DNA from: an uncultured Roseburia sp. | GTDB lineage: Bacteria > Bacillota > Clostridia > Lachnospirales > Lachnospiraceae | Direction: 5' to 3' | DNA length: 64,000 bases | NCBI GenBank assembly: GCA_947383215.1 | Contig: CANDCP010000008.1 | Span: forward strand, 16,738 to 80,737 | In this document: positions 37,905 through 49,946 of the stretch, in pieces | How positions within the stretch are numbered: position 1 is the first letter of the stretch | Layout: every line of letters starts with the position of its first letter | Program-made: the position numbers and the translations under genes | The notes under the pieces: generated by a model | Databases searched by the model: none | What the model was told of the DNA's origin: nothing | Seen by the model: only the letters and a program-made list of their open reading frames with translations

Positions 37905-38174
37905 TCCAATCCATACCTCTTTCCTGCGAAAAGCAAACCCGTATTTTTGTTTCGGTCTTTTAGAGCGCTCTGTGCGATGAAGTATGCGGCGTAGTTTTTT
38001 CAATCTGATATAGCGCCGCCGTGTCTTTTAACTCAGTTCCTCTCACTTATCTATCACCTTTAATTCCAGTATAATCGCGTCGTCTGTTGTTGAAATTTTC
38101 GGTTCTGACATCACATCATATTGTCCGGAGCCGCTGTTTTGCCATTCACTTATAAAGTTTCTCCTTCTTTTCAT
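37905..38174 (-). pseudogene. C-terminal remnant of an AAA-ATPase/PD-(D/E)XK (DUF1703) gene
   Basis: Read on the minus strand, short pieces in shifting frames match the C-terminus of the abundant Clostridia AAA_ATPase_like plus DUF1703 nuclease proteins: SGQYDVMSEPK, then DDAIILELKVIDK before a stop, ELKDTAALYQIEK with a further frame change, and KNYAAYFIAQ ending LLFAGKRYGL. These correspond to the family's YDVML-PK, AIILEFK (catalytic E-x-K), QI-KK-YA and GFAF-GK blocks. The N-terminal ATPase is gone. It fills the otherwise gene-free ~400 bases between tmcAL and the recombinase. Identification is by remembered family pattern. Confidence 0.55.
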
Positions 38175-38309
38175 GTGGCGAGGCTTTGAGTTTAGTATAT
38201 CGGATTTGCGGAGAAAAAACAATGTAAAGAGACGGTCCTTTTATATGCTGCAGAAGTTAGGGCAGACTTATTTATTAGAAAGTAAAAAAATTTTTGTGTG
38301 GAGGATGAT

Positions 38310-38999
38310 ATGGGAAATGTTTATGGATATGTGCGTGTCAGCACAAGGGAGCAAAATGAGGACAGACAGCTCATCGCATTAAATGAGTTTCATGTTCCAA
38401 AAAGAAATATTTATATGGATAAGCAGTCGGGGAAGGATTTTAACCGCCCTATGTATCATCGCTTGATTCGGACAGTCAGGCCGAATGATCTGCTCTATGT
38501 AAAAAGCATTGACCGGCTGGGCAGAAATTATGAGGAAATTTTAGAACAGTGGAGAGTTTTAACAAAGGAAAAAAAGATTGATATTGTCGTGATCGATATG
38601 CCTCTTTTAGATACCAGAAAGGGAAAAGATTTGATGGGGACATTTCTCAGCGATATTGTGCTGCAGGTCTTGTCCTTTGTAGCGGAGAATGAAAAGAAAA
38701 ATATCAGACAGAGGCAACGGGAGGGAATTGAGGCCGCCAAGCTGCGAGGCGTGGAGTTTGGCAGGCCAAGACGGCAGATGCCAAAAAATTTTAAACAAAT
38801 CTGCAACCGCTGGGTGAAAAAAGAAATTACAAGCAAAGAGGCCGCCAAACTATGCAATATTTCAGTTTCAACATTTTACAGACGGGCAAAAACGGTAAAA
38901 GAGGAAACGGGGATATCTGTCGAATCGTCAGATAATGAAGGGCGTTTGACTGTCAAAAAGTGTACTTTTTGCAAAAGATTGTCAAATACATACTTTTGA
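38310..38999 (+). CDS. Small serine recombinase (resolvase/invertase family)
   Basis: A 229-residue serine recombinase. The resolvase catalytic domain has the nucleophile Ser11 in GYVRVSTREQNEDRQ, the motif YVKSIDRLGRN and the helix E segment FVAENEKKNIRQRQREGIEAAKLRG; a short DNA-binding HTH follows (SKEAAKLCNISVSTFYRRA, ~170-190). ATG at 38310 has GGAGG five bases upstream; an in-frame GTG at 38298 is less likely. The last ~28 residues go beyond the family core and their codons run into a 25-bp inverted repeat (38951-38975) that may be its own recombination site. Resolvases, Hin-type invertases and stand-alone Clostridia recombinases share this fold; the neighbouring crossover-like sites favour an invertase. 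Confidence 0.85.
   Translation: MGNVYGYVRVSTREQNEDRQLIALNEFHVPKRNIYMDKQSGKDFNRPMYHRLIRTVRPNDLLYVKSIDRLGRNYEEILEQWRVLTKEKKIDIVVIDMPLLDTRKGKDLMGTFLSDIVLQVLSFVAENEKKNIRQRQREGIEAAKLRGVEFGRPRRQMPKNFKQICNRWVKKEITSKEAAKLCNISVSTFYRRAKTVKEETGISVESSDNEGRLTVKKCTFCKRLSNTYF
38951..38975 (+). repeat. Left inverted repeat, candidate crossover site
   Basis: A 25-base site matching the complement of 39075-39099 at 23 positions. Its core is a perfect dyad, CAAAAAGT-GT-ACTTTTTG, with a central asymmetric GT at 38962-38963, the layout of Hin/Gin-type sites. It lies within the 3' end of the recombinase gene. Confidence 0.75.
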
Positions 39000-39006
39000 A
39001 TATAGT
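38979..39006 (+). promoter_or_regulatory. Candidate promoter inside the invertible segment, now facing the cohesin genes
   Basis: TTGTCA at 38979-38984 and TATAGT at 39001-39006, 16-base spacer, each box one base from consensus. It lies between the inverted repeats and reads rightward toward the triple-cohesin gene, whose start is about 120 bases after the expected transcription start. Inversion would point it back into the recombinase gene. Confidence 0.6.
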
Positions 39007-39074
39007 TTACATTAAAAACGATAAAAAATCAATTGAAATGTTATCTTTTTGGCAGTTTTTATAACAAAAAAACA

Positions 39075-39099
39075 TTTTCAAAAAGTACACCTTTTGACA
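39075..39099 (-). repeat. Right inverted repeat, candidate crossover site
   Basis: Inverted partner of 38951-38975 with two mismatches. Core reads CAAAAAGT-AC-ACCTTTTG; the central AC (39087-39088) is the complement of the left GT, so recombination between the two would invert, not delete, the ~123 bases between the centres. Confidence 0.75.
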
Positions 39100-39134
39100 A
39101 AAATGCAAAAGTGCGTCACAGAAAGGGGATGAAA

Positions 39135-40943
39135 ATGGATATGTTTGGCAAAAAGCGCGTTGCGTTTGTTCTGACAGTCGTCATTATGTTTTCTGGCTTG
39201 TACGATCTGTTACAAGTTGTGAATGCAAATGGCATCGCGCAAATTGTGACGGAAAATATGCAGGCAGAGAGGGGGGAGACGGTTACGATTCCGGTATCGG
39301 TTGAAAACAATCCGGGATTTATGGGATTTGTAATCAATGTTGATTATGATTCGAGGTATCTTGAACCGGCGGGAGTGGAAAAAGGAGCGGCATTGAGCGG
39401 AACGTTTGACGATAATTCCGGCATAAATGTGGGGGCATTTGAAGTGCTATGGTCCGGAACATCGGATATGGTTGCGGACGATAAGCTGTTTGAACTCAAA
39501 TTTAGAGTAAAAGAGAGAGCGCCCGGGGGGAGCACTGTCGTAAATTTGTCATACAATCAGGCTGATACGTTTAATGAAAATTATGACAATATTATTTTCG
39601 AGTGCAAGAATTGTATCATTACGGTTTTGGGCGAAGAGTTGGAGGGGAGGAAAGAAAACGCGGTTCGTATGGAGGATTGCTCCAAAACTGTGGGCCAGAA
39701 CGTGAGGATTCCGGTTATGATATCACAGAATACGGGAATTATGGGATTTGTCATTCACGTTCAATATGATGTGAACGTGTTAAGACCCGTATCGGTGGAG
39801 AGAGGGGAATTGATTCCGAGCGGTTCTATGTTTGATGACACGGCAGGCGCAAACAGCGGGGAGTTTCGTGTCTTGTGGGCTGGAGATGAAAATATCGTAG
39901 CAGATGGGAGCCTGTTTTATCTGAATTTTGAAATAATCGATTCGCCGGGGGATACGCAGGTGACGTTGGGATACAGCGCGAAGGATACGTTTGACAATAG
40001 GTATCAGGAGGTTGCGCTGACATGTGGTGTGTGTGTGATTCATATAGAGGGGGAAAGTTCGTCGGAAAAACCGACAGAGCAGGAGCCGTCGGAAAGGCCG
40101 ACGGAGGAGAAACCACCGGAAGAGCCGCAGAGTAAAAATGTCGTTTCTATGTCTTTTGTGACGGCATATATCGGTGAAACTGTGAAAATTCCGGTTATGA
40201 TATCGAAGAATACGGGAATCTATTATGCCTGTATGAAAGTTCGGTATGATCCAAATAGATTGAAAGCGGTATCTGTCGACGCGGGAGAACTGTTCGCGGA
40301 TGAGTCAAGTTTCTTGGAGATAGCGGATACAGGTAGTGTGGGTGAGTTAGAGATTAAGTTGAGCGCGTCGAAAAATGTGACAGACGACGGTTGCCTGCTC
40401 TATCTGACATTTGAGGCGGTTGGCTGTGAAGGGGATACGCAGGTCAATTTGGAGTTTGTTTATGGTTATGACAGCGAATATGAGGATATTACGCTTACAG
40501 ACGCTTCCTCTACGGTAAGTGTGTGGGAAAAGCGGACGGAGCAGCAGAAACCGGATTCTTCACGTCCGACCGGAGGCAATTCCAATACGAATAACAGTCA
40601 GCCGGTCGTGCCGGGCAGTAAGCCGGGACAGGATCTAAACGGAAAATTGAAGGCGCCCGCCCGGGTAAAGGTGAAATCTTTGAAGAAAAAAGGTGCAAAA
40701 AAGCTGCAGATTAAATGGAAGAAAATAAAAGGCGTAAGCGGTTATCAGATCCAGTATGCGTTGAATAAAAAGTTTTCGAAGGGAAAGAAAAACAAAAATG
40801 TGGGGAGGTCAAAAACGAGTTATTTAATAAAACGGCTGAAGTCGGAGAAAAAGTATTTTGTCCGTATCCGGGCGTATAAGACAAGCGGCGGGGAGAAGAA
40901 ATATGGAAGGTGGAGTGCCGTCAGAAGTTGTAAGGCGCTTTGA
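39135..40943 (+). CDS. Secreted triple-cohesin scaffoldin-like protein with C-terminal Fn3
   Basis: A 602-residue exported protein. ATG at 39135 is six bases after AGGGG; two codons upstream another ATG is too near the RBS. Signal peptide ends near NANG (~residue 34). Three cohesin-like domains follow (~35-170, ~180-310, ~335-470); each has the opening GETVTIPVSVENNPG- or GQNVRIPVMISQNTG-like strand, F(M/V)I-V-YD and LEP/LRP, and the first two end with an ADTFNENYD- or KDTFDNRYQ-like strand. Pro/Ser/Thr/Glu linkers separate the parts, and a Lys-rich Fn3 domain (~505-602) closes the protein. Cohesins bind dockerins, and a dockerin protein is encoded two genes on. It has no anchor of its own, so retention may use the basic Fn3 end. 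Likely expressed from the invertible promoter. Confidence 0.83.
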   Translation: MDMFGKKRVAFVLTVVIMFSGLYDLLQVVNANGIAQIVTENMQAERGETVTIPVSVENNPGFMGFVINVDYDSRYLEPAGVEKGAALSGTFDDNSGINVGAFEVLWSGTSDMVADDKLFELKFRVKERAPGGSTVVNLSYNQADTFNENYDNIIFECKNCIITVLGEELEGRKENAVRMEDCSKTVGQNVRIPVMISQNTGIMGFVIHVQYDVNVLRPVSVERGELIPSGSMFDDTAGANSGEFRVLWAGDENIVADGSLFYLNFEIIDSPGDTQVTLGYSAKDTFDNRYQEVALTCGVCVIHIEGESSSEKPTEQEPSERPTEEKPPEEPQSKNVVSMSFVTAYIGETVKIPVMISKNTGIYYACMKVRYDPNRLKAVSVDAGELFADESSFLEIADTGSVGELEIKLSASKNVTDDGCLLYLTFEAVGCEGDTQVNLEFVYGYDSEYEDITLTDASSTVSVWEKRTEQQKPDSSRPTGGNSNTNNSQPVVPGSKPGQDLNGKLKAPARVKVKSLKKKGAKKLQIKWKKIKGVSGYQIQYALNKKFSKGKKNKNVGRSKTSYLIKRLKSEKKYFVRIRAYKTSGGEKKYGRWSAVRSCKAL

Positions 40944-41026
40944 GAACAGGAGTGAAGCAGTTAAAAACATAAAGGATAGATTGTTTTTCACGACCCGGTT
41001 TTAATGGGCCAAAAAGGAGTGGAATT

Positions 41027-42826
41027 ATGATGAGAAAAAAAGCGGTTGCAATGATTCTTGCTATTATAATGGCAGTCTGCGGACTTCCGGAAGCTATATG
41101 GGCTGAGGAGGTAAAGGTCGACAGACGGGAGACAGTTTGGGAGGAGGAAGAGGCGAATGAGCAGGTTGGGGATTTGACCAGAGAGCCTGGCGAAATTGTG
41201 GAAAGTGGGAGTTGCGGGGAAAATGCTACATATACGCTTGACGCTGCCGGAATGTTGACGATATCGGGGAGCGGGAGTATAGGATCGAGAGCATTTCCAT
41301 ATAACAAAAACATTAAAAAGTTGCGAATTGGAGAACGGATAACGGGCATAGGAAACGGTGCATTTGAGAATTGTAGTGAGTTGACGGAAGTAGAGATTCC
41401 GGCCGGAGTAACAACAATCGGAGATTTTGCATTTGGCGATTGCGACGGTTTGGCAAGTATTATTGTAGATGAGGAAAATACAGTATATGACAGCAGAGAA
41501 GGCTGCAATGCGATTATAGAGACAGAGAGTAATGAGCTGATAGTGGGTTGTATGGAGACGTGCATTCCTAATAGCGTAACGGGCATCGGGAGGTATGCAT
41601 TTTTGGGATGCAGCGGATTAGAAGAAATTGAAATTCCATCAGGAGTGACTAGGATCGGGAGTTATGCATTTGGGAATTGTAGTAAGTTAACGAAAATTAA
41701 GATTCCTGATCGTGTTACAAGTATTGAGGCTGGTGCATTTTATGGATGCAGCGGATTGACGGGAATCGAAATTCCGGCCGGAATAACGAGCATTGGGCAG
41801 TATTCATTTTATCATTGTATTGGGTTGACAGGAAAAATCAAAATTCCAAGCGGGGTAACGAAAATTGAGTATGGTGCGTTTGCATGGTGCGGCAGATTAG
41901 AGGAAATCGAAATTCCAAGTGGAGTAACAAGCATAGGAGATTTTGCATTTGAAAGTTGTAGTGGGTTGCGTAAAATCGAAATTCCAAGCGGAGTAACAAG
42001 CATCGGGGATGTGGCGTTTCGTGGATGCAGCGGATTGACAGAAATCAAAATTCCAAGCGGAGTAACGACCATCGGAGATGAGGCGTTTTGTGGATGCAGC
42101 GGATTAACGAAAATAGAAATTCCGGCCAGCGTAACGAGCATTGGGGAGGGGGTATTTTGGGGATGTGATGATTTGACCATTTATTGTTATGCCGGTTCCT
42201 ATGCGGAAACATATGTAAAAGAAGAGGGAATACCTTATCACATAATAGTTTCGTCGGATGAATCACCAAGTGGACCTTCAGACGGAGAACCGATTGTGAA
42301 GCCAAGCGAGACGCCAGGGCAGAAACCTACGGACAGTGTGCAGATACAGGATGGAAAAAATACATATGAAATCAAAGACGGAAAGACGGCTGTTTACATA
42401 GGGACAACGGATCGTAAAACAAAAAATGTTAAGATTCCGGATGATATCACGGTGAACGGTAAGAAGTATCCGGTAACGGCGGTCGCTGACAAGGCGTTTC
42501 AGAATATGAATGTGACAGGAGTCACTCTTGGCGGTAGTCTGAAAAGCATCGGGGAGTCGGCATTTGCAGGCTGCCGGAAGCTGAAAAAAATAACGATAAA
42601 AGGGAATGTGACAAAGATTGGGAAGAAAGCGTTTGCAGGCTGTAAGAAGTTAAAGAACGTAGTGATCAAATCGAGGAAGCTGAAAGTCGTCGGGAAAAAT
42701 GCGTTTCAGGGAATAAAAGTGGGAGCAAAGATTCAGGTACCGAAGAAAAAGTTTGCCACGTATAAAAAGTTGCTGAAAAAGAGCGGAGTGGGTAAGAAAA
42801 TAAAGATAATAGGAGAAAAACGGTGA
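41027..42826 (+). CDS. BspA-type LRR surface protein
   Basis: A 599-residue exported protein with signal peptide ending near AIWAEE (residue ~26) and RBS AAAAAGGAG. Residues ~60-390 hold about twelve 23-residue BspA/TpLRR repeats of the type LTKIEIPSGVTSIGDVAF. A linker with PSETPGQKPTD follows, then a second short LRR block (~445-570) and a Lys-rich tail ending KKIKIIGEKR, very like the C-terminus of the subtilase at 10.3 kb. BspA LRRs mediate adhesion. It has no dockerin or cohesin. Its 3' end overlaps the start of the CHAP-dockerin gene by 4 bases, so the two are probably cotranslated. Confidence 0.88.
   Translation: MMRKKAVAMILAIIMAVCGLPEAIWAEEVKVDRRETVWEEEEANEQVGDLTREPGEIVESGSCGENATYTLDAAGMLTISGSGSIGSRAFPYNKNIKKLRIGERITGIGNGAFENCSELTEVEIPAGVTTIGDFAFGDCDGLASIIVDEENTVYDSREGCNAIIETESNELIVGCMETCIPNSVTGIGRYAFLGCSGLEEIEIPSGVTRIGSYAFGNCSKLTKIKIPDRVTSIEAGAFYGCSGLTGIEIPAGITSIGQYSFYHCIGLTGKIKIPSGVTKIEYGAFAWCGRLEEIEIPSGVTSIGDFAFESCSGLRKIEIPSGVTSIGDVAFRGCSGLTEIKIPSGVTTIGDEAFCGCSGLTKIEIPASVTSIGEGVFWGCDDLTIYCYAGSYAETYVKEEGIPYHIIVSSDESPSGPSDGEPIVKPSETPGQKPTDSVQIQDGKNTYEIKDGKTAVYIGTTDRKTKNVKIPDDITVNGKKYPVTAVADKAFQNMNVTGVTLGGSLKSIGESAFAGCRKLKKITIKGNVTKIGKKAFAGCKKLKNVVIKSRKLKVVGKNAFQGIKVGAKIQVPKKKFATYKKLLKKSGVGKKIKIIGEKR
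41563..42183 (+). repeat. 69-bp tandem LRR-coding repeats
   Basis: About nine units of 69 bases (one 72) with high nucleotide identity around ATTCCAAGCGGAGTAAC, especially at 41908, 41977 and 42046. Each unit is one LRR turn. The DNA-level identity suggests recent duplication and possible copy-number change. Confidence 0.8.
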
Positions 42827-45800
42827 TGAAAAAAGGAATGCGAAAAGTTAGGGCATTGGTACTGGTGATTGTAATGTTTGTTTCTCTGTTTCAGGGGATA
42901 CCGGGGATGGGAGAGAAGCAAGTGACGGAGGTAAGTGCGGCATCTAAATCGCAGGCGGAAGCGCTTCAATGGGTAAAGTCACAAGTTGGTAAATCTATTG
43001 ATGCTGATGGCGCTTGTGGAGCGCAATGTGTGGATTTGATTTTGGCTTATTATGATTTTCTTGGCGTTCCAAGGGCGTCCGGAAACGGCGCAGATTATAC
43101 TTATAATGCATTACCAGATGGTTGGCAGAGGCTTCAGGGAGCAACGCCGTAGCCGGGGGATATTTTAGTATATACAGGTGGTCATAATGGTTACGGTCAT
43201 GTTGCTATTTTTGAATCAGAACGCTCGACATATCATCAGAATTTTATTGAGTATGAAGGGGAACGTTCATATGTGAAACATATAACTTATGTATATAATA
43301 GGATAAGTAATCCATATTGGGGTGTGATACGACCAAATTTTAATACACGGCCGGCGGATATGGAGCCACAAGGTTATGTTGACAAAATAGAAGCTTTGCA
43401 CGGACAGGTCAATGTTGTAGGCTGGACATTTGATCGAGATTCGATAAATACATCAATAAAAGTGCACGTTTACGTTGGAGGTCCGGCGGGGTCAGGAGAA
43501 GTTCATGTAATTCGGGCAAATGCAGAGAGGACGGATGTCAATAATGTACATGGAACAGGAAATTATCATGGGTTTAATGTGACGATTCCCACAGAGAAAA
43601 CAGGAATTCAGGATGTTTACATATACGCAATCAATGTTGACAGAAATGGGAATGATAATGGTCTGAATAATCCTCTAATAGGACATGGTAAGGTTAATAT
43701 TTTGCCGAAAATCAATTACAAAGTAAACACTGTAAACGCCGATAAAATTAACAACACGTCCGCCGTAATTTCAGGGTCGCTCTCCCCGGCGGGAACGGCG
43801 GCCTCCTGGGGATTTTATCTGGGCGAAAACGGCACGGATATGAAATATTACACAGTTTCATCTTCTGCCACGCCGTCTGCGGGTATGTCGGCAAGTACCG
43901 CGGCATTTGAAAAGTTAAAACCGGGAACCGCATATTGTTATCAGGTATGGGCCAACGTAAACAATCAGATAAAAAAGGGCGGTATTCAGTTTTTTTGGAC
44001 GACAGCGGTGAAACCGGAAATTCCAGTATTAAGAGTTGACGCGAAAAGCAAAGAAATCGGAATTGCAGATGCGCCCAGCGTATCGTGGAAAGACGTGGAT
44101 CAGGCGGAATATTACAGACTCAGGCTATACGGGCCTGACGGTGAGTTGGTGGAGGAATCAGAGGAAGTAACCGGAACCAAATATGCGTTTAAAGCGGTTG
44201 AGAGGGACGGAACATACACAGCGTCGATTGAAGCGTACAACAGCGTCGGCTCCAAAGGCGAATCGCAGCGGGCGGAAATTGTAGTGCATCCTGATGTCAC
44301 CGTGGAATTCAGGAACGCGGATACGTTTGTTGATGTGGGGGAGGACTATGAGCCTGAGGTGTTGAGCGAGCAGAAGGTGCACTGGGGGAAAGATGCGTTG
44401 AAACCGGCAGAACCGTCGCACACAGGCTATACGTTTACAAAGTGGGACGGCGTATATACAGGCGTTAAGGAAGATACGGTTGTAAAGGCAGTATATACGA
44501 TTAATACATATAATGTCACCTTTATAGATTCACTGACTTCTAAAGAATTGGGCAGACAGAAGGTAGAGTATTACAGCGCGGCGTCTCCGGTAGAGTTTGA
44601 CGTGCCGACCGCGTATAAAAAAACAGGGTACGACGGATGGGATAAAAACTATAAGTGTATTACAGAAGATACTACGCTTTACAGCTGTATCGGCTGGTAT
44701 AATGAAAACTTTCCGATTTATGCCGAGCTATTGTCGGCGGTTCGTGAATATGACGCTGAGGAGAGCGATAACGAGGGGTATACCGTAAGAGTCAGGCTGA
44801 CGAACTGGGATGAAAAAACTACAAAGGGACGGGTGGTAGTTGCGCTTAAAACCGAAAAGGGAAAGCTTTTGACGACGACGGAATCATCTGCGTTTAGTAT
44901 TAAAAAGTCAGTGAAAAAGGAGCTTGAGATTTTTGTACCGTATGATAAAGCCGCATCTGTTGCGGAAATTTATGTGGTCGGACAGTATAAGGACGCGGTG
45001 CCGGTTACAACGACTGCTTCCAATAATGCCTCCGCAAAAATTGACCAGTCTATGACATATACGAATTGGAGCGAGCAGACACCGCCGGTCGACGCGCTTC
45101 ATTCGGAGAGCAGACAGGAATACCGATACCAGGATAAGGATGTGCGGACATCCTATGCCACTTCGCTGCCCGGTTATACGCAGAGCGGAAGTCAGTGGGT
45201 GCAAAGCGGAAGCGGAGCGATCGACTATGTTAATTCCTGGCCGTCCGGGTTTAACCGCAGCAGCGGCTATTTCTCCGCTTATAACCGGGCTCCGTTGACG
45301 CCGTATGAGAACAGCACAGATAAACGTACGGTATCGACGACGATATCGGCGTACATTTACTGGCACTGGTGCAGGGGAACATACACAAACGGCCCGATTA
45401 ACCGACTGGTAAGCGACGGCTGGAGTTCGGAATTTGGCACGTTCCATGCGTACGTGTCCGGTGCGCTCGGTTACAATGCGTCTTCCGGCGCGTTCCAAAA
45501 TTCCAGGCCGGATGTCTGCCGGGATACATTCTGGTGGCTTGGGATGTCTTGCTGGAGCGGGAATTCGCTTCCGGTTTACCGCTGTAATTATACGGATTAC
45601 AGGAAACTGTTCAGCTATTACAAATGGTCGAATTATTCCGATTGGAGTACAACGCCGTATGCCGCTACATCCTCGAGAAACGTACAGATGCGTACCGTAT
45701 ACCGCTATCAGGCGGACGGAATGATGCAGCAGGATGATTCCGGGGAAGAGCGGGTGGTAAAAGGAACGCTCGGCGAAAGCTTTGCGGGAAAGGAAGCCGC

Positions 45801-48573
45801 GTTATTTATTTACAAAGTAGGAGAGGCATCGGATTATACAAATGAGTATGTGGCGCAGACGGTACTGGATGAATCGGGGAACTACGAATTTTGTTTTAAA
45901 CTGCGCGAAGAGCCTACGGCCGAGACCGGAGATTTTACAATTGTATTGGGAGTAGAGGGAACCTCGACGGCAATTTTCCTAGATAAAATTGAAGCGCCGA
46001 AAAAGGAATATACGGTTACGTTCTATGATTACAATGGGGACGTTATTTCCACGGAAACCGTCGTGGAAGGAGAGACGGCTGCGCTTCCGGATGAGGAGGC
46101 GCTTGGGCGGGAAGGATATACGTTTGTCCGCTGGTCAGATACGAACGTCAATATTACGTCGGACAAGGAAATCTATCCGGAATACGAATTAAATAGATAT
46201 CACGTTGTGTTTATCGACTGGGAGGCAAATACCGTAGAAGTAAAAGAATTTGAGTATGGCGCCCAGCTGGTGGCTCCTCAGGCGCAGGAGCCGGAAGCCG
46301 AAAAGACCGTTGAGTGGGATGCAATTGCAGACGGTAAAACGGTTGTCACAGACAACATGATCGTTACGACCAGATATACGACAAAGACTTGCAGGGTGCA
46401 GATCCTTGATTTTGACAACAAAGTAATTTCAGATGAGGCAGTCAGGTACGGTGAGGCGGCAAAGCTGCCGGAAATTGACGTAGACGATTCTAAATATGTA
46501 TTTTTGGGATGGAAAAATGTGGCGAATGGATGCGACGAGGCGGTCGGAGAAAATTTGATAAAACAAAACGTAATTTTGTGTCCGGATTATGTTTATGTAG
46601 ATACGACGCAGGATCCGGTCGCAAGCCTTGCGGGAGGTTCTTATGACGAGGCGAAGGAGGTAACGCTAAGCTGTCCGACGGAGGATGCGGATATTTACTA
46701 TACGCTGGACGGGACTAATCCAAAAGGATATGGAGCGACATTGTACACAGAACCGATTATAATTGACGATGCCGTGGAACTGCGGTTCTATGCGTGCAGT
46801 ATAGGAAGAAATGACAGCGCCGTCCAAAGGAATCTGTATACCGTGAATTATGAGGGTGCAATGAGCCGATGGATGGTTAAAGACGAGCTGCCCGAGGAAG
46901 TGCGTGAAAATATGCAGGCCTACGACCTGTATGCCGAGACGGGCTATACTTACAAAGATAAAAAGACGACGATCTATGCGCAGGAAGCAGCTGCTTTAGA
47001 GAACGGCGGCTGGACGCTTGCGGAAGGCGAGGAGAGTTATACCGATTATTCTGATTGGTCAAAAGAATATCCTGACGATTCGGGAAATTATATTTCAATT
47101 GACGTCGATTCAAAACCGGAATATACGCAGGCATCCAAGTATGTGTATTCCCATTATGCGTATACGGAAGGTACGACAGTAAAGTATGCGTCAGACGAAC
47201 CGGATGGAACGGACAGTGCGTATGAGGAGACCGAAGAATTTGAAAAACCTCTGAATATCGCGGGATTTGGCGAGGATGACAATCCGTACTATGTGTATGA
47301 CGGACAGACATGGTATAACCAAAAGCGGATTACCGGAAATGTTCAGACCGGTACAATGTATCGCTGGCGTTATAAAGAGGCGGTATATGAAAAATGGTCG
47401 GACTATTCCATTGACGAACCGTCGGAAAATGAAGAGCGGGAATATAAAACTACAAATGTATACAGTTATGTGAGACATAAAAAATATGTTGTGAACATTT
47501 ATTCCGATGCGAAAGGGACAGATGAGAAATACAGTTATCTGGCGGAGGAAGGCGATAAGATTGACGCTGTGAAATATGAGGGCGTCACGGGATATACCTT
47601 TGACGGATTTTATTTGGATAAAGATTACAGGGAAAAATGGGATTGCAGCGGCAGGACCGTATCAGGCAGCATGGATTTGTACGCAAAATTTATACCAAAA
47701 AAATATAAGGTGACATTTGTAGATCAGAATGAAGAAGAAATTTTAGTGCAGGAAGTAGATTATCTGGAAGCGGCGGACGCGCCGGAGATGAAAGAGACGG
47801 AAGGGTATCGGTTTGCCGGATGGGATACGCAGGATTATCTGAGCGTTACATACGATATGCAGGTTAAGGCAAAGTATATTCCGGAAAAGGAATATGCGAC
47901 GGTTCGTCTGGATCATGACAATCTTAAAATGTATGTCGGAAGGAGTATGGATTTGACCGCAATTGTAAGGCCTGCCGAAAAGTCTGATACAAAACTGGAA
48001 TGGATATCGGATGATACGAGTGTCGCCGTCGTCTCGGATAAAGGGAGAGTAACGGCGGTGGGAGGAGGAAGCGCGAAAATTACGGTTACGGTAAAAGAAA
48101 CCGGGGAATCGGCGGTCTGTGGCGTCAATGTTTCGGTTGATCTTGAGACTTCAATCGGATTGCTGAAAAATTCCCGTCTGAAAAGGGATTCGTACGGGTA
48201 TCTCCGCGGCATAAAAGCAGGAGCAAATACGGTGTCGGAGCTTGAAAAAGAATTTGAAAATGATACGTTGGTATTCAAGGGTGCCGACGGCAATACGCTA
48301 TCAGGCGACAGTGTAGCGGGAACGGGGGCGAGAGTGATCTTGATGTCCGGCGACAAAGAATTGGACAGTATCACAATAGTTGTGATTGGAGATATTTCAG
48401 GAGACGGCTTGATCACCAACAGGGATGTGAGTATGCTTGCACGCGCGCTGCTCGAGAAGGAGCAGCCGACGTATATACAGATTCTTGCCGGCGATGTGAA
48501 CGGAGACGGAGAAATTAACAATAAAGATATCAGTATGATTTCAAGAGTCAGATTAGGGAAAGAGGCATTTTAA
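42823..48573 (+). pseudogene. Giant CHAP-domain surface protein with C-terminal dockerin, interrupted by one amber codon
   Basis: One frame runs from 42823 to 48573 (about 1,916 codons) broken only by TAG at 43150-43152, where homologous context (GATP-x-PGDILVY) implies an original CAG (Gln). Before the stop: signal peptide and the first half of a CHAP amidase domain with Cys in GAQCVDLILAYYD. After it: the catalytic His in GYGHVAIFES, a beta domain with VDKIEALHGQVNVVGWTFD, Fn3, several InlB/Listeria-Bacteroides repeats, a CHB_HEX_C-type module (DADIYYTLDGTNP), Big2, and a dockerin at 48388-48570 with two calcium loops (GDISGDGLITNRD, GDVNGDGEINNKD). Without readthrough the product is a 109-residue fragment. 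A GTG at 43273 could restart translation but would give no signal peptide. It may be a true mutation, a strain polymorphism or a sequencing error. Confidence 0.82.
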
Positions 48574-48584
48574 AGGGAGAAAAT

Positions 48585-49568
48585 ATGGCGAAAAAAATGT
48601 TTACAGGGGACATCAAAAAATTAAAAGGTTTTCTATTATGCATTCTATTGATATTTTCGCTGACGCTCCCTGTAAAAGCGGCGCAAGAGGCGGCGCAGGT
48701 AAAGTTTGGAGAGCCTTTGGGGGAAGAGGAAAATTTATATAAAATTCCGCTGTGTATCTACGGAAATCGGGGAATTATGGGATATTACATAACAATAACA
48801 AAGACGTCGGGAGCCGCGCTTATTACAGGCGCAGAGCGCGGCCGCCTGACAGAGAAAGGCATATTTGATTTCCGGGTATCGAAAGCGCAGGACACGGTAG
48901 AAATCTTGTGGGCAGGGCTGGATGAGGTATCGCAGGACGGTGAGATGTTGTATCTCATTTTATCCGATTCCTCGGGATTTGAGCAGGCATGCACATTGAC
49001 GGTAAGCTATTCGCAGGCGGATACGTTTGACGAAGAGTATCGGGATGTGAAGCTTGATTGTTACGGCGTATCGGTGAAAGGGGAAAAAGAGCCGAAGGTT
49101 GTCGGAACGTCTTCGGAGCCGGAGAGAGGCGCGCAGGCAGGCGCTTCTGAGAAGAAAGAAAAGCAGGGTGAAAGATCCGAAAAGATTGTTCATGAGCTGA
49201 CGGAAGAACGGAAGGCTTCGGATAATAAAAGCGGGTCAACGGAGCGGATAGAAGAATCGGGAACCGGGAAGAGGCAAATGCTGCCGGAGACTGACCGCAG
49301 GAAGGATGCGCCTGATGAACCGGCCGATAAAGAAGCGGATTCAAAGACGACGGATTTGTATCAAACGGGTGATGACGAGATTGACGGCAGAACGATGAAG
49401 GTCGAGGAGAAACTAAAGAAAGCGGAAGATATAGAGAAGAAAGATAATGCGTGTGCAGTAAAAGTTATCCTTGCGGTATTTTTTCTTCTGCTTTTTGCAG
49501 GCACGATAATAAGAAAGCATAAATTTTCCGTTGGACACATATATAAAGAAAGAATTTTGAAATTTTAA
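48585..49568 (+). CDS. Membrane-anchored single-cohesin protein
   Basis: A 327-residue protein: signal peptide (to about residue 30, LPVKAAQ), one cohesin-like domain (~35-160) with GNRGIMGYYITI and the same SYSQADTFDEEYRD strand seen in the triple-cohesin protein, a charged, disordered Glu/Lys-rich linker (~165-285), and a C-terminal hydrophobic helix (KVILAVFFLLLFAGTII) with a basic tail. This is the layout of an anchoring scaffoldin. It starts 11 bases after the dockerin gene with AAAGGGAG, so it belongs to the same transcription unit and may tether that protein to the membrane. Confidence 0.8.
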   Translation: MAKKMFTGDIKKLKGFLLCILLIFSLTLPVKAAQEAAQVKFGEPLGEEENLYKIPLCIYGNRGIMGYYITITKTSGAALITGAERGRLTEKGIFDFRVSKAQDTVEILWAGLDEVSQDGEMLYLILSDSSGFEQACTLTVSYSQADTFDEEYRDVKLDCYGVSVKGEKEPKVVGTSSEPERGAQAGASEKKEKQGERSEKIVHELTEERKASDNKSGSTERIEESGTGKRQMLPETDRRKDAPDEPADKEADSKTTDLYQTGDDEIDGRTMKVEEKLKKAEDIEKKDNACAVKVILAVFFLLLFAGTIIRKHKFSVGHIYKERILKF

Positions 49569-49626
49569 AACGCAGGAAATTTATGGCGGAAGGTATTATC
49601 ATGCAGTAAAGCGGGGGGACGATCAT

Positions 49627-49881
49627 ATGAGAGACTTAGCGGCATTACACCCGAGATTACAGGCGAAGGCAGCGCTTCTAAAAGACACGTGCAAAAAAGA
49701 GGGGATAGCCATTCTTTTCAGCGAAAGTTTAAGAACGAAGGCAGAGCAGGACGCTTTATACGCCCAGGGGCGGACGGCGTCGGGAAACATCGTCACGAAT
49801 GCAAAGGGCAGTACGTACAGTTCCCAGCACCAATGGGGAATTGCCGTTGACTTTTACCTTGACATGGACGTCGGCCTGTAA
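49627..49881 (+). pseudogene. Truncated M15-family D-Ala-D-Ala carboxypeptidase/endolysin
   Basis: Only 84 residues with the N-terminal half of phage-type M15 peptidases: SLRTKAEQDALYAQGRT and the zinc motif SSQHQWGIAVDFY (His and Asp ligands). The second zinc site (the usual E-W-G-G-x-W ... P-H-F block) is absent, because the frame stops shortly after DMDVGL. Intact relatives are about 130-190 residues. RBS GGGGGGAC is present, so a short product may be made, but it should be inactive. Probably a prophage remnant. Confidence 0.75.
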
Positions 49882-49946
49882 TGCCGACAGGCAGGAACAT
49901 TAAAATTTGCGCATAACGGAAAAGAAATTTTCTGTAACACGAAAAG

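Follow-up and report, generated by a model that had tools for sequence, protein, structure and literature searches.

The locus raises the question whether a short A+T-rich segment, bounded by inverted repeats and lying between a small serine recombinase gene and a run of surface-protein genes, is turned over by the recombinase, and in which orientation it was assembled. It is found in a 64,000-nt stretch of DNA (the window) from an uncultured Roseburia sp., the source genome of which amounts to 2.86 Mb in 77 contigs and is 99% complete. Judged from sequence comparison, the locus is very probably an inversion switch, and a role in phase variation, in which the recombinase would flip a short promoter segment upstream of the surface operon, is highly likely as well.

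Anatomy of the locus

The recombinase gene, the two repeats and the genes behind them are arranged as follows.

38310..38999, plus strand: small serine recombinase with 229 aa in the assembled state (E 2.3e-28 to Pfam Resolvase, PF00239)
38951..38975, plus strand: left inverted repeat, with the crossover site at 38954-38971 and the core GT at 38962-38963; the same type of site occurs in the set of 41 switches described below
38962..39088, no strand: predicted invertible segment, measured from core to core, about 127 bp
39075..39099, minus strand: right inverted repeat, with the crossover site at 39079-39096 and the core AC at 39087-39088
39135..40943, plus strand: target gene 1, secreted protein with three cohesin-type stretches and fn3 (Pfam Cohesin, E 5.6e-37)
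41027..42826, plus strand: target gene 2, BspA-type leucine-rich-repeat protein (Pfam LRR_5, E 3.8e-104)
42823..48573, plus strand: target gene 3, large surface protein with a terminal type I dockerin (Dockerin_1, Big_2 and Flg_new in 43273-48573)
48585..49568, plus strand: target gene 4, an ORF of 327 aa in the same tandem run

The recombinase scores 99.6 bits against PF00239 (cut-off 23.3). Its top phmmer match among solved structures is Sin (2r0q; 109.8 bits, E 1.4e-30), with gamma-delta resolvase second (72.6 bits); the structures labelled only as DNA-invertase, 3uj3 and 4m6f, which we take to be Gin, fall below both (55.5-56.9 bits). The catalytic motifs RVS and DRLGRN are conserved and align with those of Sin. 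The alignment to Sin reaches residue 194 of 209, and Pfam reports no separate HTH for the recombinase. Against the NCBIfam model of Mpi, NF009949, the protein scores 53.4 bits, below the cut-off of 272. A search of the source genome gave no further match to the recombinase at E 0.001 or better. An IS607-type element was rejected for this recombinase by domain order, the DNA-binding domain of IS607-type recombinases being N-terminal. A relative in the same genus (L013/L016, on G001:C36; 52% identity) has its frame interrupted by an in-frame TAA.

The sites of Hin and Gin, recombinases that serve the phase variation of genes, are about 26 bp long and have a 2-base core. The original prediction drew on Hin/Gin-type invertases, and the sites of the window do agree with this, being dyads of about 26 bp with a 2-base core in inverted orientation; for the protein the label is too narrow, since among solved structures Sin and gamma-delta resolvase outscore the DNA-invertase entries. 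Both the cores and the outer arms place the sites in inverted orientation, and the directly repeated arrangement of Sin-type res is not found. The 25-nt inverted repeats, with two mismatches, were recovered exactly where they had been predicted, and the repeat search stretches the match to 30 nt (87%). Within 38700-39350 the inverted-repeat score peaks at 19, a value that none of 100 dinucleotide shuffles reached (mean 9.2, maximum 12). The left site reads CAAAAAGT-GT-ACTTTTTG and the right site CAAAAAGT-AC-ACCTTTTG, the latter with one mismatch, which bears out the predicted asymmetric core and the one-base deviation of the right copy. The two sites are 125 nt apart, or 11.9 turns of 10.5 bp, and the inner part of the segment is 80% A+T, against 52% for the window. 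Sites with at most one mismatch occur at just these two places in the whole source genome, on which ground a master-invertase system was rejected.

The recombinase was also said to end inside the left repeat. Its last codons do contain the left site and the ORF overlaps the repeat, but the ORF ends just past it, at 38999; after inversion the computed C-terminus would be 9 codons shorter (220 instead of 229 aa). In the orthologous locus of the same genus (L017) the recombinase gene stops upstream of the site. L017 carries the recombinase, the sites, the segment and the cohesin gene in identical order, with the orthologue of target gene 1 behind the same switch. A near-full-length match to the cohesin protein is present in two of eight genomes of the genus, that of the window and G007, and both carry the switch.

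Target gene 1 has possible starts at 39135 and 39129, preceded by AGAAAGGGG. For target gene 4 Pfam returned no match; its protein aligns with the cohesin protein, over residues 192-324 of the latter, at 36% identity (E 9.8e-13). The reading frame of target gene 3 is broken by an in-frame TAG at 43150-43152, presumably inside a CHAP-like domain, and the first fragment, before the TAG, has no Pfam match. This stop codon, the mismatch in the right site and the fact that the segment has the same orientation in the window and in L017, the only orthologue found, would be expected if the switch had once been active and had since decayed, leaving the lineage locked in the OFF state. Such a decay is unlikely: the recombinase frame is intact and 80% identical to that of L017 over 204 columns, half-sites of the GTGTACCTTTTG type are present in many related switches, and the stop, lying in a downstream gene, may have arisen recently or in assembly.

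Recurrence of the module and the position of its promoter

The same arrangement recurs in other genomes, as found both from the DNA side and from the protein side. A blind DNA pattern of two facing GTGTAC-type sites, which uses no protein reference, was run on 397 family genomes and picked out 22 pairs, spread over 19 of them, against one match for the reversed control pattern. Leaving aside the window and its orthologue, 18 of the remaining 20 pairs have a relative of the recombinase within 133 nt, and in 16 of these 18 cases the 3' end of the recombinase gene faces the pair. In the class-wide search the pattern matched 8 of 391 genomes, two of which (that of the window and G327) had already been counted, and the control matched 2; a recombinase relative stands beside six of the seven new pairs, within the 1.5 kb that was scanned. 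Three site pairs (L126, L132 and L142) with spacings in the bands of the family (138, 137 and 146) have no recombinase in the DNA examined, and are perhaps flipped in trans. In the viral collection the site pair was found in one stretch and the recombinase at 12 loci.

From the protein side, at least 558 relatives of the recombinase were found, the best 80 of which were taken on. The output of a plain inverted-repeat scan of these was dominated by an N-run in L078, and a stricter site test was used instead. It detected a site pair in 23 of the best 80 relatives, reduced to 22 when L018, the pair of which is degenerate, was dropped, and the row of the window itself (L011) was left out too; the pair of L020 lies 1549 nt away from the recombinase. 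The window, the 22 protein-anchored loci and 18 DNA-anchored loci make up a set of 41 switches. The core is asymmetric in 36 of them (34 GT/AC and 2 AC/GT). The other five (L038, L059, L061, L074 and L080) have an AT core, which is self-complementary, so that the core alone cannot decide between inversion and deletion in these switches.

One promoter motif, cTTGAtt-17-tgnTAaAAT, emerges between the sites of the 41 switches. In 29 of the 41 segments the distance from the end of its -10 element to the near crossover is 38-42 nt, and in nine more it is 27-31 nt, 38 in all; L050, L096 and L125 are kept among these 41 segments. The motif was learnt from the relatives and its position was not used in the fit. 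In 30 sets of shuffled interiors a mean of 3.5 segments of the 41 fell in these distance bands, with a maximum of 8. Two candidate promoters have to be compared in the window.

39004..39032, minus strand: conserved promoter, in the putative OFF orientation, with the -35 element TTGATT at 39032-39027, a 17-nt spacer and the -10 element TAAACT at 39009-39004
38979..39006, plus strand: TTGTCA-16-TATAGT, the promoter proposed originally, away from the position kept in the family

The original prediction was that TTGTCA-16-TATAGT is active and that the surface locus is therefore ON in the assembly. The sequence is indeed present, agrees with the consensus at 10 of 12 positions, is among the four best sigma-70 consensus matches in 38100-49900, and has both of its hexamers conserved in L017. 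It lies, however, 81 nt from the crossover, where the family has about 30 or 40, and the minus-strand match TTGATT-17-TAAACT lies at 41 nt. A fit that leaves out the window and L017 gives the minus-strand promoter 10.7 and the plus-strand candidate 3.4; with all 41 switches in the fit the scores are 12.8 and 3.0. The verdict for the minus strand rests on this comparison, because the plain consensus favours the plus-strand candidate, the minus-strand promoter being weak by that measure (8 of 12). A generic sigma-70 score, at 11.9 against 12.0, did not discriminate between the two strands of the window; the motif learnt from the relatives took its place, each fit leaving out the segment to be scored. 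L020 and L051 retain a TTGTCA-like element but lack a good -10 on the plus strand, whereas the minus-strand TTGATT-17-TAAAAT or TAAACT is conserved, although the strand scores of L051, a near relative, are themselves close and indecisive (8.4 against 7.7). An active plus-strand promoter is accordingly improbable.

The conserved promoter of the window is thus aimed at the recombinase, and the surface operon is most likely OFF in the assembly, the reverse of what had been proposed. The arrangement expected of an inverton, a promoter between inverted repeats with a gene reading away from them, was found by comparison, and the operon reads away from 39099. In the inverted state the computed coordinates place the promoter at 39018-39046 on the plus strand, directed toward the cohesin operon. 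Among the 41 switches the promoter points toward the recombinase in 30 and toward the target in 8; three (L050, L051 and L125) are unsettled. The recombinase gene is reversed in two of the 41, L117 and L125, so that a promoter facing the recombinase does not simply mean OFF there.

An element resembling TTGTCAAATACATA lies at 38979-38992 of the window, between the minus-strand -10 and the near crossover, and has counterparts in L017, L020 and L051. As it is kept even where a good plus-strand promoter is missing, it is perhaps an additional binding site for the recombinase or for a regulator.

Reversed segments and helical phasing of the sites

Comparison of relatives for a flipped segment had been suggested as a check of the original prediction. 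In this comparison L017 has the orientation of the window, and the segment is reversed between related modules. One pair of such modules is L130 and L136. Their segments align in reverse with 110 identities, 3 mismatches and 1 gap, while the forward alignment yields only 60 identities; the recombinase sides match forward over 651 of 700 bases. On the right the flanks show no relationship, with only 56 identities over the first 100 bases, which implies that the module has moved or that its target has been replaced, and that the pair is not a complete orthologous locus. The near-identical recombinase and segment of L130 and L136 occur in genomes of different families (f1 and f78); this sharing is due to horizontal transfer of the module or to a binning error.

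The segments of L074 and L080 are also alike only in reverse (112 against 17, shuffle maximum 33), as are those of L029 and L070 (92 against 19, shuffle maximum 39). The left flanks of both pairs match forward; on the right, L070 and L074 have flanks that are either chimeric or not long enough for comparison. Two further pairs, with both flanks matching forward, are barely above the shuffles when reversed: L025/L050 (52, maximum 48) and L038/L050 (50, maximum 47). The contig of L070 continues past the segment into a terminal stretch that matches its own left flank in reverse complement at 91 of 91 bases, which suggests that both orientations were present in the sequenced DNA; an assembly error could have the same result.

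Contigs end within 320 nt of the recombinase on the switch side in 14 of the 80 relatives and on the other side in 2 of 80 (binomial p 0.004). A clear site is found in the tail of five of the 14 (L045, L048, L057, L070 and L074), and in L070 and L074 the site pair is still visible despite the contig end. Repeats could be part of the cause of these switch-side ends. Comparison across related modules supports the predicted inversion switch well, and for the species of the window itself inversion is predicted from these modules.

The distance between the sites is restricted. From 50 spacing values, seven near-copies (L017, L070, L080, L094, L122, L129 and L136) were removed, and 40 of the remaining 43 fall into four bands with means of 115.0, 126.0, 136.5 and 146.3, which correspond to 10.95, 12.00, 13.00 and 13.93 turns of 10.5 bp. 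The bands were drawn post hoc; the period test is free of them. At 10.5 bp the resultant R is 0.66, and the mean phase departs from whole turns by -0.14 bp. In 5000 smoothed resamples this R was never reached at 10.5 bp; nor, over periods of 8 to 14, was the best observed value ever attained, a test in which the null was computed on a 0.2 bp grid and the observed value on a 0.05 bp grid, slightly favouring the latter. The spacings outside the four bands are those of L125 (131), L020 (159) and L043 (167). L020 is near 15 turns and L043 near 16, so that only L125 is far from an integral turn; it has a long branch and a recombinase gene turned round, and its genome also contains a control match.

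On the recombinase tree of 46 rows, 13 of the 43 inner branches of which are weak, the band changes at least 18 times, so that spacings have shifted from band to band on many occasions. Shuffled labels change 23.6 times on average, and in none of 200 shuffles as few times as observed; the labels are thus clustered on the tree, and the spacing values are not fully independent. In our judgement the whole-turn spacing is probably required for function, and we infer the reason to be that, in so short a loop, both sites must lie on one face of the helix.

Integral-turn spacing is also needed by looping repressors such as LacI, and the helically phased sites, which flank the promoter closely, could be the operators of such a system, in which the recombinase, perhaps catalytically idle, loops the promoter without inverting it; this is very improbable in view of the segments reversed relative to the recombinase in near-identical modules and of the L070 contig, of the asymmetric core in 36 of 41 switches, for which an operator has no need, and of the catalytic motifs that align with Sin.

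Proposed mechanism, known systems and the genes behind the switches

The anatomy of the locus, its recurrence, the position of the promoter, the phasing and the segments reversed between related modules are read directly from the sequences, and for catalysis, for ON/OFF expression and for the role of the phasing we infer the following steps. The adjoining small serine recombinase would bind the two inverted sites, 125 bp apart, which would synapse via a very short DNA loop; the 2-base cores would be cut and the 127-bp segment rejoined in the flipped orientation. As assembled, the promoter would face the 3' end of the recombinase gene and the cohesin/LRR/dockerin operon would be OFF. Once flipped, it would direct a transcript that presumably starts near 39053 and crosses the right site into the operon. 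The sites would be kept an integral number of turns apart, mostly 11-14 in the family, and would thus face the same side of the helix. This phasing may replace the Fis/enhancer scaffold of Hin and Gin and make the inversion synapse possible. Invertible promoters as such are known, and this one would be a helically phased, short-loop form.

The invertible segments of Hin and Gin are about 1 kb long. The segment of the window is about 127 bp, its recombinase is encoded outside it and its sites have whole-turn spacing, in which it differs from these systems. To judge by the small size of the segment, the module probably lacks a Fis-bound enhancer. Sin, of the Tn552 bin3 group, acts by resolution on directly repeated res sites, in which a second regulatory site takes part. 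It is the closest solved sequence (2r0q) to the recombinase, but the window has two simple inverted sites, and the product would be an inversion. The likeness to Hin and Gin lies in the serine recombinase and the inverted sites: in these systems, as described in PMC3798978, serine chemistry is used to cut and rejoin inverted sites so that the segment is flipped, Hin uses a Fis enhancer, and a small loop limits exchange to one rotation.

Mpi of Bacteroides fragilis is described as a serine-type master recombinase acting on at least 13 regions, including polysaccharide loci (PMC5903667). The likeness is that of a serine-type recombinase with invertible promoters; the difference is that the genome of the window has two sites with at most one mismatch and that the recombinase stays below the cut-off of the Mpi model. 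In Clostridioides difficile the cwpV and flagellar switches have segments of 154-230 bp by surface genes, and RecV, a tyrosine-type recombinase, flips several such sites (PMC5903667). The window resembles these switches in having a clostridial segment near surface genes and differs from them in the enzyme family. The PhaseFinderDC survey of invertons in gut strains reports new repeat motifs in Firmicutes_A groups 125 and 139, with segments beside surface genes and invertase genes nearby, as in the window (PMC11892184). Its main text names tyrosine-type recombinases for group 139 and does not contain the word "serine"; the motifs of its groups stand in the supplement, and the family of the window may overlap them. 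A search of the freely accessible literature found no paper combining an invertible promoter, a serine recombinase and Lachnospiraceae, and none of the titles and abstract openings covered describes this switch family or a rule that ties the length of invertons to whole turns.

The genes behind the other switches are diverse. The longest frame starting at most 900 nt away was listed for 36 loci, and 30 of the 36 were scanned with Pfam; the listed genes are candidate targets, and some frames begin 500-830 nt from the switch. A TnpB-like protein stands behind eight of the scanned switches. The others include MBOAT (twice), another acyltransferase, Wzy (below cut-off), Cna_B, Big_2, MmeI, an Eco57I methylase, helicases (two), GGDEF, RES, SPFH, a periplasmic-binding protein and an epimerase. 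The downstream frames of L020, L051, L075 and L096 have no Pfam match. The switches of L083, L091, L116 and L131 precede PLD-helicase, Eco57I methylase, helicase-associated and MmeI-type genes, and it is possible that the restriction and helicase genes behind switches constitute phase-variable defence.

The TnpB/Cas12f-like proteins (L022, L025, L029, L038, L050, L059, L060 and L080) are 434-489 aa long and match PF07282; the two that were scanned with the NCBIfam model guided_TnpB were below its cut-off. An Asp aligned in two solved TnpB relatives, which we take to be the RuvC-III acid, is Lys in the switch-linked proteins. The RuvC-I and -II acids also appear to be replaced. Judged by these residues, the protein looks like a nuclease-dead TnpB under an invertible promoter.

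A broader proposal, somewhat short of an even chance, is that these modules form a class of enhancer-free serine invertases of gut Clostridia in which DNA geometry is the control. A planar micro-loop of 11-14 turns would permit only the inversion synapse, the promoter would be helically phased to the site (at about 30 or 40 nt), and one interchangeable cassette would be placed before surface proteins, envelope-modification enzymes, restriction systems and apparently nuclease-dead TnpB-like proteins. The signature of site, adjoining recombinase, promoter position and whole-turn spacing could allow ON or OFF to be called from nothing more than an assembly. Through the spacing rule it becomes directly testable how a serine recombinase that has neither Fis nor an enhancer settles on inversion and not on deletion. 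Among the genes behind the switches, those for restriction enzymes and TnpB-like proteins point to phase variation of defence besides that of the cell surface.
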